Assembly: GCA_039802005.1 (NCBI GenBank)
Contig: JBDRVV010000001.1
Coordinates: 62,001-126,000 of the forward strand
Reading direction: 5' to 3'
DNA length: 64,000 nt
Source: a candidate division WOR-3 bacterium
GTDB lineage: Bacteria; Hydrothermota; Tepidihabitantia; SM23-42; JAOAFX01
This document shows, piece by piece, positions 17,155-42,835 of this stretch. Both the position numbers and the translations under genes were made by a program. Position 1 is the stretch's first letter, and every line of letters starts with the position of its first letter. A model generated the notes under the pieces. That model was not told the origin of the DNA, made no database searches, and worked only from the letters and a program-made list of their open reading frames with translations.

Positions 17155-17831
17155 ATGGAGATCTTAACACCTTTACAACAGGATTTTATAAGAGCATTTT
17201 CAAAAACAAAACTCGTAGAAAATTTTTTCTTGACCGGGGGTACTGCCCTGTCCGCATTTTATCTTTTCCATAGATATTCAGAGGATATGGATTTTTTTAC
17301 TGAAATAGAAGGCGAAGTAATAAAAGTTGTGCCGATATTAAAAAAATTGCTAATGTAACAAAAGCAAATCTTGAAATCAAAAAAGAGTTTTCTACCTTTC
17401 TTGAATCTTTTTTCAAGCGAGGCGATGAAACAATCAAAGTATATTTTGCAAAGGATACGCCATTTCATCTAAGAAAAATCAAAAGAAATAAAGAGTATAG
17501 CATTTTAATTGATAATGAACTTGATATTGCCTGTAATAAGCTCTCTGCATTGTTTGACCGATCAGCAGAAAAAGATTTCGTAGATATATATTTTCTTTCA
17601 AAAGAATTTATGCCATTTGAAGAGATATACAAAAATGCCCGAAAGAAACATATTGGAATGGATGAATATTGGCTTGCCGCTTCTTTAAAAAATATAGATA
17701 AAATTCAGAAATTACCAAAAATGATTAAACCCGTAACCATAGAAGAGCTGCGCGAATTCTATTACGAAAAGATAAAAATGTTAATGGCAAGGATAAGAAA
17801 AAAAATAATGTTGTATCAATCCATTGCCTAA
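17155..17831 (+). pseudogene. Frameshifted nucleotidyltransferase toxin (AbiEii/AbiGii family)
   Basis: The first part, from ATG 17155, has the family's nucleotidyltransferase motif GGTALS-x-FYLFHRYSEDMDFF and stops at 17358. The remainder lies in the -1 frame from about 17338 to 17831 (IKKIANVTKANLEIKKEF...ELDIACNKLSALFDRSAEKDFVDIYFL), which includes the conserved C-terminal region. One extra A in the A7 run at about 17340-17346 would restore a protein of about 225 residues. The break lies exactly at an A_AAA_AAA heptamer, so programmed -1 frameshifting, real decay and a sequencing indel all remain possible. It starts 1 nt after its partner. Confidence 0.7.
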
Positions 17832-17882: not shown

Positions 17883-18710
17883 ATGCAGTATTTATTGGAG
17901 AATATAAGAGTGAATGCGCAAGGGAAGGATAATCAAAGGGTAATATCAGACTTGCTGACGAAATTTATCATTAAAGATATGAATGAATGGTCTGGTGTTA
18001 ACGCGGACCTAATAATTACCGACCCACCTTTTGGCATAAAGTTCAATGGGAAGAATACAAATTACCATAGAAATGTTAAGAATGTGGTTGATGGATATGT
18101 AGAATGGAGTGTTTCTGAGTATGGTGAAAAAATTCAGCAATTATTGGAATGCATTGAGAGAAATTTAAAAGAAAATGGCCAGGCTCTGGTCTTTTCAGGA
18201 TGGAATAATAGCAATATCATCCACGATCGGATTATTAGATTCAAAGGATTGACATTGAGAGGGAAGATGTATTGGACATATAACTTTGCACCGGTTTGTA
18301 GAAAGAAAATGTCACATAATGTCTATGAGATTTACTGGGTTACCAAAGGTGAACAATGGACATTCCATAAGAGATGCAATACTAGTCATTGTTTAAAGGG
18401 TGAACCAAATTTGACAACATTAAATTTCAAAAGGGATTATAAAGTGAGAATGCCTAAATATCCAACAAGATTACCGTTTAAACTACTTCAATGTTTAATA
18501 GAACATTTTTCAAATAAAAATGATTTAATTTTTGACCCTTTATGTGGAAGTGGAATGTTGGGTGTGGTTGCCTATTTTATGGGCAGGAATTTTTTGCTGG
18601 GGGATTTAAATCCAAATGGTAAGATTGTTTTTGAACACCTCCTTGATTATTATTTAAATAAAAACGGGTTGCAGCAGGATAAGATGTTGTTAACCTGGTG
18701 GAAGAAATGA
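17883..18710 (+). CDS. Type II DNA methyltransferase (N6-adenine/N4-cytosine class)
   Basis: A 275-residue methyltransferase with catalytic motif IV first (TDPPFGIKF, about residues 44-52) and SAM-binding motif I late (FDPLCGSGMLGVVAYFMGR, about 219), the beta-class order. The DPPF form suits an exocyclic amino methyltransferase; adenine versus cytosine cannot be told. Its stop overlaps the start of the next gene in an ATGA, and that gene has features of a restriction endonuclease, so together they read as a type II R-M system whose methylase protects host sites. Recognition sequence unknown. Confidence 0.85.
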   Translation: MQYLLENIRVNAQGKDNQRVISDLLTKFIIKDMNEWSGVNADLIITDPPFGIKFNGKNTNYHRNVKNVVDGYVEWSVSEYGEKIQQLLECIERNLKENGQALVFSGWNNSNIIHDRIIRFKGLTLRGKMYWTYNFAPVCRKKMSHNVYEIYWVTKGEQWTFHKRCNTSHCLKGEPNLTTLNFKRDYKVRMPKYPTRLPFKLLQCLIEHFSNKNDLIFDPLCGSGMLGVVAYFMGRNFLLGDLNPNGKIVFEHLLDYYLNKNGLQQDKMLLTWWKK

Positions 18711-19366
18711 ATCACGCCAATTTTTTCAACTTGGCAAAAGAAATATCCAAAAACATGCGTAATATTCCAACTATTTGGAATGGAAGAAAATCTATTCTTG
18801 AAATGAAAGAGTCAGGATTTAATCAATGGAGGCAAATGGAATGGATTGGGTGGTACTTTCAGTTTTTATGTGAAAAGTTACTAAAAAATATCGTAAAAAT
18901 ACCAGGTCCAAAATATGGCAATGTGGAATTTGATGGCTTTAAAGAAATACCGTGGGATTTTAAATCTCATGCAATAAACACAAGCAGTCATCAAATTATT
19001 GTAAACGACAGGCAAGCCATAGCGAATGCAATACGAGATTTCGGATGTGTCGGTTTAATTTTGGCAATGGGTTATGTAGAATACAATGATGAATTTCGTA
19101 GTTTTCAGAGGTGGCATGAAAAACTCAAAGGTGGAAAGTCAAAATACGAATTAGAGAGGATAAAAAGAGGTGCCTGGTCACGCTTAAGAAAGGTAGAATT
19201 TCGATTAAAACAAATTTCTTTTATAAAGATTGATGACAATGTTCTCATAAAATGTGGTTCTTTCCAAAGGGATTTTCGTAATGCCGATGGTTCGCCAAGA
19301 AGAGAAAAAGTTTTACTTGACTTGGAAAAATTAGATGAAGAATTGATTTACTTTATGGAATTTTAA
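18707..19366 (+). CDS. Putative type II restriction endonuclease
   Basis: A 219-residue protein starting at ATG 18707, which overlaps the methyltransferase stop by 4 nt (a GTG 9 nt earlier is less likely). I cannot name its family with certainty. A PD-(D/E)xK-like arrangement is visible: E74-x-D76 (VEFDG) and D84-F-K86 (PWDFKSH) around a predicted beta hairpin. Tight coupling to a methyltransferase of matching size strongly implies it is the cognate endonuclease. The next gene, queD, starts 17 nt later but is functionally unrelated. Confidence 0.65.
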   Translation: MNHANFFNLAKEISKNMRNIPTIWNGRKSILEMKESGFNQWRQMEWIGWYFQFLCEKLLKNIVKIPGPKYGNVEFDGFKEIPWDFKSHAINTSSHQIIVNDRQAIANAIRDFGCVGLILAMGYVEYNDEFRSFQRWHEKLKGGKSKYELERIKRGAWSRLRKVEFRLKQISFIKIDDNVLIKCGSFQRDFRNADGSPRREKVLLDLEKLDEELIYFMEF

Positions 19367-20428: not shown

Positions 20429-20992
20429 TTATTTCTTACCTGTGTGTGTTGCAATTGAAACGATTTTAAAAATATCTTCGCCTGCTTTAAGTGCCTCTAA
20501 TAATTTTTTAAACATATATGCCGTTTCTAAATTAGTTTTTTCTTGAAGCATTAATAATTTTGCAAGGAGAATAAGAAACCTAATACTATATTCACCTTTT
20601 TGGCCTAAGTCTTCATATTTTTTGAACTCATCTTGATTGATTTTTAACAAATATTCGATATTCAAGATTTTTCTTCTTTGCTCTTCAGACTTTATTGGTT
20701 CAATTTCGTCCCATACTTTTAACAGAAAATCTAAAAATTCCTTTGTCTTTTGAGGATCAGCATGCATTTTTATGAGAATATCAACTGCCCAATGAATATG
20801 TTTCGGTGTTCTGATATTTGACCATCCTTTTTTATTTTTCTGTCTATATTTTATAAGGATATCATATTTACTTATGCTTCCCTGATAGACAGCTATGATA
20901 AATTTTTCATTTACTTTAGAAACAAATAGAGGGGTTGCTTTTTGTCCTTTCTTTTTGAAAGACATAAGTGTAAACAAATTGTTATCGTTCAT
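20429..20992 (-). CDS. Unknown helical protein, third gene of methyltransferase operon
   Basis: About 187 residues from ATG 20992, which has a GGTGGAG site just upstream; an in-frame ATG at 21007 is the alternative. I do not recognise the family. The N-terminal 80 residues are mixed alpha/beta with a striking polar strand SKYDILIKYRQKNKKGWSNIRTPKHIHW (nuclease-like in flavour: D-x3-K on one strand, basic residues and H nearby). Residues 85-187 are predicted all-helical. It overlaps the preceding 68-residue gene, so it is translated with the methyltransferase. A restriction or modification-accessory role is inferred only from that. Confidence 0.6.
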   Translation of the reverse strand: MNDNNLFTLMSFKKKGQKATPLFVSKVNEKFIIAVYQGSISKYDILIKYRQKNKKGWSNIRTPKHIHWAVDILIKMHADPQKTKEFLDFLLKVWDEIEPIKSEEQRRKILNIEYLLKINQDEFKKYEDLGQKGEYSIRFLILLAKLLMLQEKTNLETAYMFKKLLEALKAGEDIFKIVSIATHTGKK

Positions 20993-21188
20993 TATTTCTC
21001 CACCCATCCTTTGACTGCTCTTTTAAATTGCGTATACCTTTTGGAACTATAGGGCCAAAAACTGGTGGCATTAAAAAACCATATATCCTTTTTTGCAGAT
21101 ATAACTTCAATGTATCAATGTCATAAAGGACTATAAATAATCCGGATTTGGGTATATTGTTCATAGACAATTCATTTCTTCTTTTCAT
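20982..21188 (-). CDS. Unknown small protein (68 aa), second gene of methyltransferase operon
   Basis: A small basic protein whose ATG lies 17 nt inside the end of the methyltransferase gene, and whose end overlaps the next gene. It contains one likely beta-alpha unit, GLFIVLYDIDTLKLYLQKRIYGFLMPP, then GPIVPKGIRN. I find no known family. Overlap on both sides makes it likely to be a genuine translated subunit rather than a chance frame. An internal ATG (21164) would shorten it by eight residues. Confidence 0.5.
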   Translation of the reverse strand: MKRRNELSMNNIPKSGLFIVLYDIDTLKLYLQKRIYGFLMPPVFGPIVPKGIRNLKEQSKDGWRNNER

Positions 21189-22707
21189 AAATTAACAAAT
21201 AATAATGTGTTATTTCCAAAAATTGATTTGCTTTATAATCCAAATCAACTTTGTGATTCTCTGTGGTTACGATTACAATTTCTTTAAGTAAAAGATTGTT
21301 AAATTTAATTATATCAGTGATTAACTTGCCGAGCGGCAATAAATAATTATCTTTTCGTATATCATTAATTAATATGGCAATTATGCCACCTTTATTTAAA
21401 CTATTGAGTTCACGTTCTACAATATTCTTTATCTCTTCAAGATATTTGTCAGTATCCCAATTAGATGATTCAATATGTGGAATTTTGGCCTTAATATAAA
21501 CTAAACTGTTTCTCAACTTCTTTTTCGTTCTTGCCAAATTTTGAGAGGAACCACCATTAGCAGAAAGGCTAATCGTTACATACCCATCGCTTGTCCAATA
21601 ACGCTCAATTATATTTGTATCCAGATTTTTTTCAAAATCATCCTGCGGGAAAATCCATACGGTGGTTGTTTCAAGTTCTTTTAATTGTTTCTTTAACACC
21701 GGTTTAACAAATTTAGGCTTTAAGGAAGTATAAACAAAGGCATCTTCTTTAATGGTGATAGGAGTGAATGGTTTTTCAAAAATAGGAAGGTATTCGTGTG
21801 CCAAGAGTAAGAAATTATATTTTATGCTATTTGTATACCAGAATCCAGTTGTTTTACAATTATGCTGGCGTTTTATTACAAGTTCACGAAGCTTGAAGCC
21901 AGCTTTTAAGTATACATCAATCAATTTGAAACCCAAAGGCACAACATATTTGTGTTTCCGCATATCTCCAATAAGTATTACACATTGTCTACCAGGCTTT
22001 AATACCCGAAAACTTTCTTCGGCAACCTTTTTCATTTCGGTAAGAAAGTCATCAATATTAAGATGGGACAGATCACTTTCATTTGAATTGGTATATTGAA
22101 TAATGTTTGCATATGGGGGATGTGAGCAAATTAAATCTATTGAATTATTTTGAAGGAAGGATAAATTACGGGCATCGCCAACCATAACTTCAGGTTCATA
22201 TATCTCGTATTGATTATCTTTATCTACTAATCTTAATTGCAAGGGTGTGACTGAAAAGTTTAAATTTCGCCTTGCCAATTCAATTGCTTTTTCGTTTATG
22301 TCCAAAGCTATACATCGCCTTCCTAATAGTTTACTCTCAACAGCGGTTGTGCCCGCACCGCAAAAATAATCTAATACAATCTCGCCAGGTTTTGAATATT
22401 TTAGAATTACATTCCTTGGTATATAAGGTGACCAATTGCCACGGTATTCACCACTATGCGTTGCCCAATTTCCCCTTTGTTTAAAGCTCCAGACAGTCGT
22501 TTGCTCTTCTATAAAGTCTTTAGGATGTAATATTTTTATCTTTTTTAAATCTTTAAACCCACTTACATTTATACCTTTAGCTTTGGTTATAACCTTTTCA
22601 ATATATTTATAAGTCACACCGAACTTTCGTCCAATTTCAATATCCGGTGTCCCTTTTTCTTTTTCCAATAAAATTGCTTGCTCAAGGTTCTGCTCTTTTG
22701 ATGCCAT
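21172..22707 (-). CDS. DNA methyltransferase with N-terminal HTH and degenerate second methylase half
   Basis: A 511-residue protein. Residues 22-42 form a helix-turn-helix (EIGRKFGVTYKYIEKVI). Residues 66-315 form a methyltransferase: WATHSGEYRGNWSPYIPRN (80-98), SAM motif I VLDYFCGAGTTAVESKLLGR (111-130) and catalytic motif IV DLICSHPPYANI (191-202), the amino-methyltransferase type. Residues about 347-511 echo the same domain (TTVWIFP versus TTVWSFK; GIIAILINDIRKDNYLLPLG versus QCVILIGDMRKHKYVVPLG) but lack both motifs. A near-leaderless promoter precedes it. It heads an operon of three overlapping genes. Sequence specificity unknown. Confidence 0.85.
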   Translation of the reverse strand: MASKEQNLEQAILLEKEKGTPDIEIGRKFGVTYKYIEKVITKAKGINVSGFKDLKKIKILHPKDFIEEQTTVWSFKQRGNWATHSGEYRGNWSPYIPRNVILKYSKPGEIVLDYFCGAGTTAVESKLLGRRCIALDINEKAIELARRNLNFSVTPLQLRLVDKDNQYEIYEPEVMVGDARNLSFLQNNSIDLICSHPPYANIIQYTNSNESDLSHLNIDDFLTEMKKVAEESFRVLKPGRQCVILIGDMRKHKYVVPLGFKLIDVYLKAGFKLRELVIKRQHNCKTTGFWYTNSIKYNFLLLAHEYLPIFEKPFTPITIKEDAFVYTSLKPKFVKPVLKKQLKELETTTVWIFPQDDFEKNLDTNIIERYWTSDGYVTISLSANGGSSQNLARTKKKLRNSLVYIKAKIPHIESSNWDTDKYLEEIKNIVERELNSLNKGGIIAILINDIRKDNYLLPLGKLITDIIKFNNLLLKEIVIVTTENHKVDLDYKANQFLEITHYYLLIYEKKK

Positions 22708-40926: not shown

Positions 40927-42000
40927 TTAAGTTAAAATGTCGTTTAAATCAATACCATTTATCTTTACATGAAAATTATTAACCGTAGATTCTTTATTAA
41001 GCAGCGTTAAATATTGTATCTTGATTGGTGGCAATTTGTCTTTAATCAACTTTTTATCCGTTGTAAGTTTAAGTATTGGAGATGGATTATATTTTTTTTC
41101 ATTAACTTTTACATCTTTTAAGTTTGTAAATAAAATCATTTTAAGTAAACCATCCTTTATGTCTTCTAAAGAAGGTAAAATACTTTGCTTACTATGTTTA
41201 CCTTCAATCAAATAAATTGAATTATCCATTATAAATACCTCATCACATGTGAAAAAATATTGCCCACCAAGAAAGTTTTTTATGTTTAATATTGCTTTTT
41301 TGCCTGTTAATTTTTCTTTAGGCTGATTGGTCACCAATTCTCTATGTTGAGCTTTGCGTGCTAAATCTCGGGATAAATTCATAAAAGAATCCTTACTTTT
41401 GACTAATTCTTGAATCCGCCTTTCTACGGTCATTGTTGAGTGCATTGAGACCTTTAAATTTTTTGATATGATTTCATAACTCTGCAAAGCCCTATTAGCG
41501 ATTTCACCGACTCTACCAATGTGCGAAAGATTCCAGTGTAAAGCATCTGATTGAAAATATCTAATCTCATTTAATTTATTTTTAATGTAATTAATATCAA
41601 ATTTTTGATTCGTTATTTTATTTTTAAACTTTAGATTTTTTTCAGCATCTACATAATAAGCGATAATTGTATATACGCCCAGTAAGCTCATCAGTGAGAT
41701 GGTATCCCATTGGAGAAAATCTCGGTCGCCATCTTTACCTTCATCTTTCATCACCGGTATAATTGTTATCTTCTTACCCTGAAAGTTTAATGAATCATAT
41801 ACTCTTGCATAGGGATAAGACCTTGTTCTTTTAGGTGAAACCCACCAGCTTACAGCAACCTGCGTATTATTATCAATTTGCAAAATAAAGGTGCCATCGT
41901 GTGAGAAGGCATTGCTCAAATCTTCAATGAAATAAGTCTTTAATGTACGACATAGAAATGGAGAATATTTTATGCCGGTAATTTTAGCGGATACAACCAT
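40927..42000 (-). CDS. Putative type II restriction endonuclease in the tol-pal operon
   Basis: A 357-residue soluble protein starting at ATG 42000, overlapping the methyltransferase end by 17 nt, with Shine-Dalgarno GAGAAGG. No named family is certain. A PD-(D/E)xK nuclease core is visible: D253-E254 (CDEVFIMDN) followed by E266-x-K268 (YLIEGKHS), the usual D-x12-E-x-K spacing. The N-terminal region (SWWVSPKRTRSYPYARVYDS) is rich in basic and aromatic residues. Pairing with a TSPPY methyltransferase makes an endonuclease role likely. One nucleotide separates it from tolB. Confidence 0.7.
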   Translation of the reverse strand: MVVSAKITGIKYSPFLCRTLKTYFIEDLSNAFSHDGTFILQIDNNTQVAVSWWVSPKRTRSYPYARVYDSLNFQGKKITIIPVMKDEGKDGDRDFLQWDTISLMSLLGVYTIIAYYVDAEKNLKFKNKITNQKFDINYIKNKLNEIRYFQSDALHWNLSHIGRVGEIANRALQSYEIISKNLKVSMHSTMTVERRIQELVKSKDSFMNLSRDLARKAQHRELVTNQPKEKLTGKKAILNIKNFLGGQYFFTCDEVFIMDNSIYLIEGKHSKQSILPSLEDIKDGLLKMILFTNLKDVKVNEKKYNPSPILKLTTDKKLIKDKLPPIKIQYLTLLNKESTVNNFHVKINGIDLNDILT

Positions 42001-42835
42001 ATTTCACACCTTCTCTAACAATGACTTCAAAGGTATCATTCTGATTGTTAAAATCCATCTGACCCTCAAAACCAACTTTTTTTCTGATTATTGGTATAAG
42101 TGATTTTTTTATTTCAATACCAATACTATTTCGCCCTAATGCCCTCGCTACTTTCATTGTGGTACCACTCCCGACGAATGGGTCTAATACCGTCTCTCCC
42201 ACATATGAAAATAATTTTATTATTCTATAAGGCAATTCCTCAGGGAATGCAGCAATTTCTTTTTCCAATTCCGAACCCGGCAGTACGTTCACCATCTCCC
42301 ACAATGTCATATACCATTTATTATCTGAAAATTCTTTAATATCAATTTTTGATGCTTCTCGAATATCTTTTGGAATAGACCTATAATTAAATTTCCCTTT
42401 TTGGAAAATTATTATACTCTCCAGTAGGTTATCAGGGTAATAATACATAGGATAAGGATTCTGTAATAGTACGCCACTCCTTCTGCTAATTCTCAAATAT
42501 CCATCGGGTTTTTTCCAGATTATTCTGTCTCGGTATCTAAAGCCAGCACTCTGGAAAATTTTTATAGCATCGGCTACAATCGGAAATTTTTCGCCATTCA
42601 CTAACATATCATCAATATTTAAAACCGCAATTCTTCCATCTTTTAAAACCCTATAAACTTCTCGTGCCACTTTATTAAGAACTCCAAGATATTGTCCGTA
42701 ATTTTTGAATAAACCATTGTAGTCAAAAGGTGCATTAAAATAGGGTGGAGAGGTAACCATCAAATGTACACTTTCATCGGCAATTTCTGCCATACTCATA
42801 CAGTTACCGATTATCAACTTGTGGTGAGTGCCCAT
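41984..42835 (-). CDS. Type II DNA methyltransferase (TSPPY, probable N4-cytosine) in the tol-pal operon
   Basis: A 283-residue beta-class methyltransferase: catalytic TSPPYFNAPFDY at 28-39, then motif I VLDPFVGSGTTMKVARALGRNSIGIEI at about 217-243. TSPPY is usual for N4-cytosine methyltransferases, but adenine is not excluded. The ATG comes only 2 nt after the tolA stop, and its end overlaps the endonuclease start; hence it is transcribed from the pal promoter unless an internal one exists. Recognition site unknown. Confidence 0.88.
   Translation of the reverse strand: MGTHHKLIIGNCMSMAEIADESVHLMVTSPPYFNAPFDYNGLFKNYGQYLGVLNKVAREVYRVLKDGRIAVLNIDDMLVNGEKFPIVADAIKIFQSAGFRYRDRIIWKKPDGYLRISRRSGVLLQNPYPMYYYPDNLLESIIIFQKGKFNYRSIPKDIREASKIDIKEFSDNKWYMTLWEMVNVLPGSELEKEIAAFPEELPYRIIKLFSYVGETVLDPFVGSGTTMKVARALGRNSIGIEIKKSLIPIIRKKVGFEGQMDFNNQNDTFEVIVREGVKYGCIR

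Follow-up and report, generated by a model that had tools for sequence, protein, structure and literature searches.

Restriction-modification (R-M) systems of the DpnII type are among the best studied restriction systems, and the DpnII, MutH/Sau3AI, D12 and DpnA families are GATC enzymes in the systems characterized. In the beta class of methyltransferases the catalytic PPY motif usually precedes motif I, and a HPPY motif cannot distinguish m6A from m4C. For EcoP15I Mod2 a split of labor has been proposed, in which one protomer recognizes the DNA and the other methylates it (PMC4490356). The MTA1 complex of ciliates includes MTA9, an inactive subunit that lies against MTA1; when charges in MTA9 are reversed by mutation, the complex binds DNA less well (PMC9852454). 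Two methyltransferase domains on one chain have been described for M12.MhoVII in a type II system (PMC12898733). Here we analyze a 64,000-nucleotide stretch of the genome of a candidate division WOR-3 bacterium (the window). One of its loci probably represents a variant of GATC-type methylation modules and contains a part that had gone unrecognized.

An ORF check of the window placed P0001, P0002 and P0003 on the minus strand, where the initial annotation had them (Table 1). P0001 and P0002 overlap by 17 nt. The overlap of P0002 and P0003 amounts to 26 nt with the longest P0003 start (20429-21007, 192 aa) or to 11 nt with an inner ATG at 20992 (187 aa), the start favored by homologues. Of the trio proposed initially, the pair of P0001 and P0003 could be upheld, whereas P0002 as a third member, having no credible homologue, could not.

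Table 1 Features of the methyltransferase locus, in positions of the window.
Feature	Position	Strand	Basis
P0001, 511-aa two-domain DNA methyltransferase (predicted)	21172..22707	-	PF01555, PADLOC MTase_II PDLC03376, AlphaFold
P0001 N-terminal three-helix, helix-turn-helix-like domain, residues 1-50	22558..22707	-	AlphaFold helices
P0001 predicted active methyltransferase domain, residues 69-314	21766..22503	-	Motif order, homologue conservation, Foldseek
P0001 SAM-binding motif I LDYFCGAGTT, residues 112-121	22345..22374	-	Sequence reading; conserved columns in homologues
P0001 catalytic motif IV HPPY, residues 196-199	22111..22122	-	Sequence reading; invariant in homologues
P0001 degenerate second methyltransferase domain, residues 345-511, lacking both motif I and PPY	21175..21675	-	hhalign, PF01555, secondary structure, selection, single origin
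P0002, 68-aa ORF, probably not a component	20982..21188	-	Codon score; homologue search; relatives' loci
P0003, 187-aa member of the unnamed methyltransferase-associated family 'P3'	20429..20992	-	Alignment, AlphaFold, neighborhoods

Sequence and structural model predict P0001 to be a DNA methyltransferase of the N6_N4 type with the active domain in its N-terminal half. The protein belongs to PF01555 (E 1.7e-29, 103.8 bits at a gathering cut-off of 26.7), and residues 55-312 match the PADLOC type II methylase PDLC03376 with an E-value of 2.1e-97, the 249 positions of this model fitting the active half best. The motifs follow each other in natural order, motif I and then HPPY, and the key residues of the domain are invariant or nearly so in 19 homologues. 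An AlphaFold model built with 19 sequences reached a pLDDT of 74 and a pTM of 0.71, and Foldseek matched the active domain to methyltransferases (best E 9.4e-12). The traits of a type III Mod protein were not found, as motif I precedes HPPY and no helicase-size ORF adjoins P0001 in the window. The MT-A70 domain is absent from the 13 Pfam families listed at E-values up to 0.5. At the N-terminus, the model shows helices at residues 2-17, 22-29 and 33-44 with block pLDDT values of 80-86. This helical domain is conserved among proteins with a degenerate second half and remains unaligned in their sister enzymes; Pfam gave no HTH match in it, and we infer that it binds DNA.

According to the initial annotation, residues 347-511 repeat the layout of the active domain without SAM motif I and the catalytic PPY, and both parts of this claim are borne out. 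TTVW recurs at about residues 348-351 and GIIAILINDIRKDNYLLPLG at residues 441-460 repeats QCVILIGDMRKHKYVVPLG at residues 241-259, while motif I and HPPY have no counterpart in the second half. The position of strand 4 reads Y-I-K there, and K406, which takes the place of HPPY, is invariant in nine aligned homologues. When a profile of nine C-terminal halves was compared with a profile of eight active halves, hhalign returned a probability of 98.1% and an E-value of 8.6e-14. Taken singly, eight of the nine homologous C-terminal halves hit PF01555 (best E 1.1e-5), and a profile made of C-terminal halves only, searched across the phylum, leads back to the active half within one and the same protein (E 1.0e-13). 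The repeat is far stronger than chance would give.

Structure prediction had been suggested as a check, and the order of helices (H) and strands (E) in the AlphaFold model of the C-terminal half is indeed methylase-like: the succession H218-235/E236-244/E249-251/E254-256/H258-269/E272-280/E304-311 of the active half is repeated as H419-434/E437-447/E450-452/E455-457/H459-466/E472-482/E502-509, with block confidence in the core of the C-terminal half mostly at 85-94. What is repeated is the post-catalytic part of the methyltransferase domain; about 75 residues, including motif I, are lost. A sequence search of the PDB with the C-terminal half returned only chance matches to Mcl-1, and its architecture is described neither in Pfam PF01555 nor in PADLOC PDLC03376. 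Judged by its sequence, the second half of P0001 is a homologous copy of the methyltransferase domain, which the loss of motifs predicts to be catalytically dead and to which we refer as the dead half.

All dead-half enzymes fall into one clade in a maximum-likelihood tree of active domains (17 rows, support 100/99). The enzymes come from WOR-3, Chloroflexota, Armatimonadota, Nitrospirota and Patescibacteria, and the sister rows of the clade are loci L108 and L147. One unlabeled row is the viral contig L009, with the dead half in an overlapping second frame. A split into two ORFs was seen only there, and a frameshift, be it natural or due to sequencing, accounts for it. Free-standing dead-half genes in the genomes G045 and G019 were considered and rejected, both ORFs running to contig ends. 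The viral contig measures 60 kb and carries another methylase behind the two overlapping frames of the dead-half methylase (L009:3929-6138); dead-half enzymes may also travel on viruses.

To estimate selection, pairwise dN/dS values were calculated after Nei-Gojobori. Three informative pairs gave 0.24, 0.30 and 0.14 for the C-terminal half, whereas their active halves had values of 0.07, 0.05 and 0.04; a fourth pair, with a C-half dN/dS of 0.52, is too close (dS 0.05) to be informative. As the values of the informative pairs are well below 1, the dead half is kept by purifying selection, and its confinement to one clade shows a single old fusion. It is highly unlikely that the C-terminal half is instead a passive remnant of a tandem duplication, without a function of its own. 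Such a remnant might be expected from its faster evolution relative to the active half (0.14-0.30 versus 0.04-0.07) and its further shortening in L112, but the dN/dS values, 20 invariant columns in the C-terminal halves of nine divergent sequences, the confidently modeled core and the retention of the dead half in every clade member seen, across several phyla, all speak for a constrained domain.

The claim that the 68-aa P0002 is a partner of the methylase did not hold, as it is absent from this position in relatives and gave only marginal matches elsewhere. Searches returned no family match, and among 147 genomes of the phylum none yielded a credible homologue; the best match was marginal (E 0.0014), and the locus concerned has no corresponding ORF. 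In L099, L111, L115 and G030, the homologues of the methylase and of P0003 lie at most 10 nt apart or overlap, with no P0002 between them. Since nothing like P0002 is conserved, we rejected it as a component of the system. Its codon score of 0.176 is borderline (wrong-frame stretches have their 95% point at 0.128 and their 99% point at 0.184), and P0002 may be expressed.

For P0003, no significant model was found in Pfam, NCBIfam, PADLOC or PHROGs at a cut-off of 0.001. Assignments to DUF6978 (E 0.09-0.12), BrxL_N (0.028 in one of seven members) and YqeK (0.047) were rejected, all being below cut-off and not common to the family. We scanned 85 thousand genomes, one per species, and obtained 61 loci, 60 of them with a P3 reading frame. 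A methyltransferase is located within 3.5 kb at 55 of the 60 loci, in line with the expectation that the last gene co-occurs with the methylase, and at 41 the two genes share a strand and are no more than 60 nt apart. These neighbors belong to three classes, namely Dam/D12, DpnA and the 'TTVW' kind of the window. The DpnII endonuclease is also present at 13 of the 60 loci. P3 typically stands in operons of the order D12 Dam - DpnII - P3 - DpnA-type methylase (L105, L126, L129, L131) or DpnA - D12 - P3 - DpnII (L113, L117, L137), and it is fused behind a Dam (D12) enzyme in one locus, L136 (Lawsonibacter). Five loci have no methyltransferase nearby: four are at contig ends, one of these (L100) adjoining a weak MutH-like gene, and the fifth, L138, encodes a full-length P3 without R-M neighbor and without a recognized methyltransferase within at least 3.4 kb. 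The family spans bacteria and archaea; in archaea and candidate phyla its genes come after orphan methylases, Dam among them. It was not found in phages, plasmids or IMG/VR, and none of the papers searched describes P3 as part of a DpnII system.

Within an alignment of 51 sequences, P0003 is 53-60% identical to the P3 proteins of DpnII operons. It carries the family signature of D44, TPxHxH, K75 and QE..N and shares the methyltransferase neighborhood. The AlphaFold model of P0003 (pLDDT 90.8, pTM 0.86) shows a small N-terminal beta-sheet with D44 and K48 and a TPKHIH turn, followed by helices. A Foldseek search against the PDB gave no match (best E 0.24, with TMq not above about 0.2), BFVD contained no fold match to the model, and profile comparison revealed no relation between P0003 and the dead half. 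P3 is a widespread unnamed family without a known fold, tied to GATC systems.

Some variants were seen around this family. P3 is tandemly duplicated in a DpnII operon at L114:4620-5396 (+) and L162:629-1405 (-), yielding a protein of 258 aa whose first copy is without the TPKHxH signature, a dead-copy fusion within P3 itself. A second, weakly P3-like family of 176-181 aa with the motif GQEDCNYPEGEGREMSM adjoins the same methylases (L159:1790-2317 (-), L160:4655-5200 (+), L110:4746-5276 (+)), and for one of its members NucS_N was hit marginally (E 0.01). A gene for 407-449 aa is a repeated neighbor of methylases of the dead-half or TTVW kind (L156:1459-2796 (+), L159:9-1232 (-), L124:2189-3538 (+)); it had no family above cut-off and is possibly a further partner of these systems.

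Of the 147 genomes surveyed in the phylum, 14 encode the dead-half enzyme: 13 matched the C-half profile at E-values under 1e-40, and G087 was added to them. The gene that follows is P3 in seven genomes (G000, G007, G030, G039, G041, G045 and, after a 181-aa gene, G135) and of the DpnII type in four (G019, G087, G145, G146). A PF04556 DpnII gene directly follows the methylase in the WOR-3 genomes G019 (E 1.1e-12), G087 (E 2.2e-11) and G146 (E 1.1e-17); the gene of G145, cut by a contig end, is a near-identical homologue recognized by eye. The remaining genomes have a short P3-like remnant (G004), a P3-like 176-aa gene (G075) and a 445-aa gene of no assigned kind (G130). Dead-half loci with DpnII have no P3 and those with P3 have no DpnII; P3 could stand in for the endonuclease here.

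This distribution bears on the possibility that P0003 provides the restriction activity of the pair, as a small nuclease with a new fold that uses D44, H65, H67, K75 and E151. The pair would then be a complete two-gene R-M system, and P3 a second nuclease in DpnII operons. We consider this, the main alternative, somewhat unlikely. The mutual exclusion of P3 and DpnII-type genes in the dead-half loci seen would fit such a role, as would the invariant or nearly invariant, enzyme-type set of D/H/H/K/E, the frequent position of P3 directly after a methyltransferase as its sole partner and the fusion to Dam in L136. Restriction genes are often found cut short or broken, and P3 is shortened or broken beside an intact methyltransferase in L095, L118, L141 and G004. 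However, P0003 has neither a sequence nor a fold match to any nuclease, a genuine DpnII endonuclease shares the locus with P3 in 13 cases, including the operons listed above, and L138 keeps a full-length P3 with no recognized methyltransferase close by. The initial suggestion that a polar strand of P0003 could form a nuclease site likewise found no backing in a nuclease fold or family; the strand coincides with the family signature (D44, K48, TPKHxH), by itself no evidence of a nuclease.

GATC, or a sequence close to it, is the most likely target of P0001, because the operon partners of its sister enzymes and of its dead-half relatives are GATC-linked. L147 (Fusobacterium vincentii) has Dam-D12, DpnII, Mrr-like and TTVW methylase genes in tandem, and at L108, with L147 one of the two closest outgroups of the dead-half clade, the methylase has Dam and P3 genes as neighbors. 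In the Bacteroidota locus L130, a TTVW enzyme is joined by a D12 Dam, P3 and an endonuclease of the MutH family (PF02976, E 5.8e-11). The ratio of observed to expected GATC sites is 0.32 in the window's genome, 0.30, 0.38 and 0.07 in three carriers and 0.70 and 1.10 in two other carriers; two genomes without the system have 0.29 and 0.08, and under-representation does not track the system. Site avoidance depends on system lifetime (PMC4687349). Over 164 kb, made up of the window and 100 kb of other contigs, CTAG, GGCC and GATC are all strongly under-represented (observed/expected 0.08, 0.25 and 0.32).

An alternative, which we regard as unlikely, is that the module is a solitary epigenetic methyltransferase with a non-GATC target and P3 a general helper of amino-methyltransferases. 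GATC-linked enzymes are what Pfam identifies as type II endonucleases beside P3 or directly after dead-half enzymes (DpnII, MutH/Sau3AI), and the D12 and DpnA partners are GATC enzymes in characterized DpnII systems. A non-GATC target would nevertheless agree with the failure of GATC avoidance to track the system, with the pairing of P3 with three methyltransferase classes and with a type III-like Res gene just upstream in G004, and our analysis found no characterized member of this methylase class.

The whole draft assembly of the window's genome (97.6% complete) gave no match to DpnII (PF04556) or MutH/Sau3AI (PF02976), the two endonuclease families searched for. The window's operon contains no D12 Dam methylase. 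The only D12 of the assembly is on another contig, within a 686-aa frame (G000:C24:19678-21534) that appears to include a PF01555-like domain as well, much as in MhoVII and other fused M1-M2 methylases (PMC12898733). The description of the locus as a poorly known R-M type is only partly apt: the dead half and P0003 are unrecognized parts, but their relatives reside in ordinary GATC-type (Dam/DpnII) R-M operons.

Other genes of the window are also of note. A second candidate R-M pair at 17883-19366 (+) consists of a PF01555 methylase (275 aa) overlapping a 222-aa protein, in which the stretch EIPWDFKSH is, by eye, possibly PD-(D/E)xK-like; this protein has no family or PDB match. An apparently broken AbiEii-type toxin gene lies at 17155-17831 (+); its N-terminal piece matches PF08843 (E 8.4e-10), and ORF 17550-17831 may be its continuation. 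Another PF01555 methylase (41984-42835 (-), E 1.1e-46) is found at an odd site, between a TonB/ExbD/ExbB/OmpA-type envelope cluster and a 357-aa gene.

Our explanation of the locus as a whole, to which we give an even chance, is that of a DNA modification module made up of P0001 and P0003 and akin to GATC-type (Dam/DpnII) R-M. With support from motifs and fold, the N-terminal half of P0001 would transfer methyl groups. By its sequence, the C-terminal half is a second protomer fused to the first; the SAM site and the catalytic motif disappeared from it once, in a common ancestor, and selection has kept it since. It would act as the inert partner of an intramolecular pseudo-dimer, binding the target and positioning the active half, with additional DNA contacts made by the N-terminal helical domain. 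Such a built-in pseudo-dimer or DNA-recognition role is most likely, being the most economical reading of the dead half, and the precedents of EcoP15I Mod2 and MTA1-MTA9 render it plausible; P0001 may alternatively form an ordinary homodimer. P0003 would be an accessory protein whose link is to the GATC site or its methylation and not to one enzyme, since P3 is paired with different methylase classes that share the presumed site. Its likely roles would be site binding, binding of the methylation state, or regulation. With no partner DpnII or MutH endonuclease in the assembly, the module probably acts here as solitary modification or protection.

With somewhat less than even confidence, we further propose that P0003 founds an unrecognized family of unsolved fold, a shared part of bacterial and archaeal GATC systems that acts on the GATC site or its methylation state as a reader, a regulator or a new-fold nuclease, and that P0001 is a single-chain methyltransferase with a permanently inactive protomer, a prokaryotic counterpart of MTA1-MTA9. 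An extra gene of unknown fold recurs in the well-studied DpnII operons, and should P3 read GATC methylation or act on it, a component missing from such systems in general would have come to light. The dead domain, being fused, in turn offers a compact natural test of how inert partners such as MTA9, METTL14 or the second EcoP15I Mod contribute to substrate recognition, because both halves are on one chain and separable.

Compared with the PF01555 N6_N4_Mtase family and the PADLOC PDLC03376 type II methylases, of which the active half is a clear member, P0001 differs in the architecture of its C-terminal half. EcoP15I Mod2 of type III consists of two identical beta-class subunits and works with a Res helicase, whereas the second protomer of P0001 would be permanently inactive and fused, and no Res lies beside P0001 in the window. 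In M12.MhoVII both domains are active, belong to different classes and methylate complementary motifs; in P0001 one domain is presumably dead and the two share a same-class origin. The ciliate 6mA pair MTA1-MTA9 and METTL3-METTL14 likewise combine an active with an inert methyltransferase domain, together with helical DNA-binding partners (PMC9852454). P0001 would unite such a pair and an N-terminal helical domain on one prokaryotic chain, but is not of the MT-A70 kind, and its dead half is the shorter one by the roughly 75 residues that include motif I. From R-M systems of the DpnII/MboI type, made up of a D12 Dam, a second methylase and DpnII, the window differs by having neither the Dam partner nor the endonuclease, and by a TTVW methylase with a dead second domain; yet the family of P0003 and a sister of P0001 are found inside such operons, and an endonuclease of the DpnII type accompanies relatives of the dead-half enzyme.
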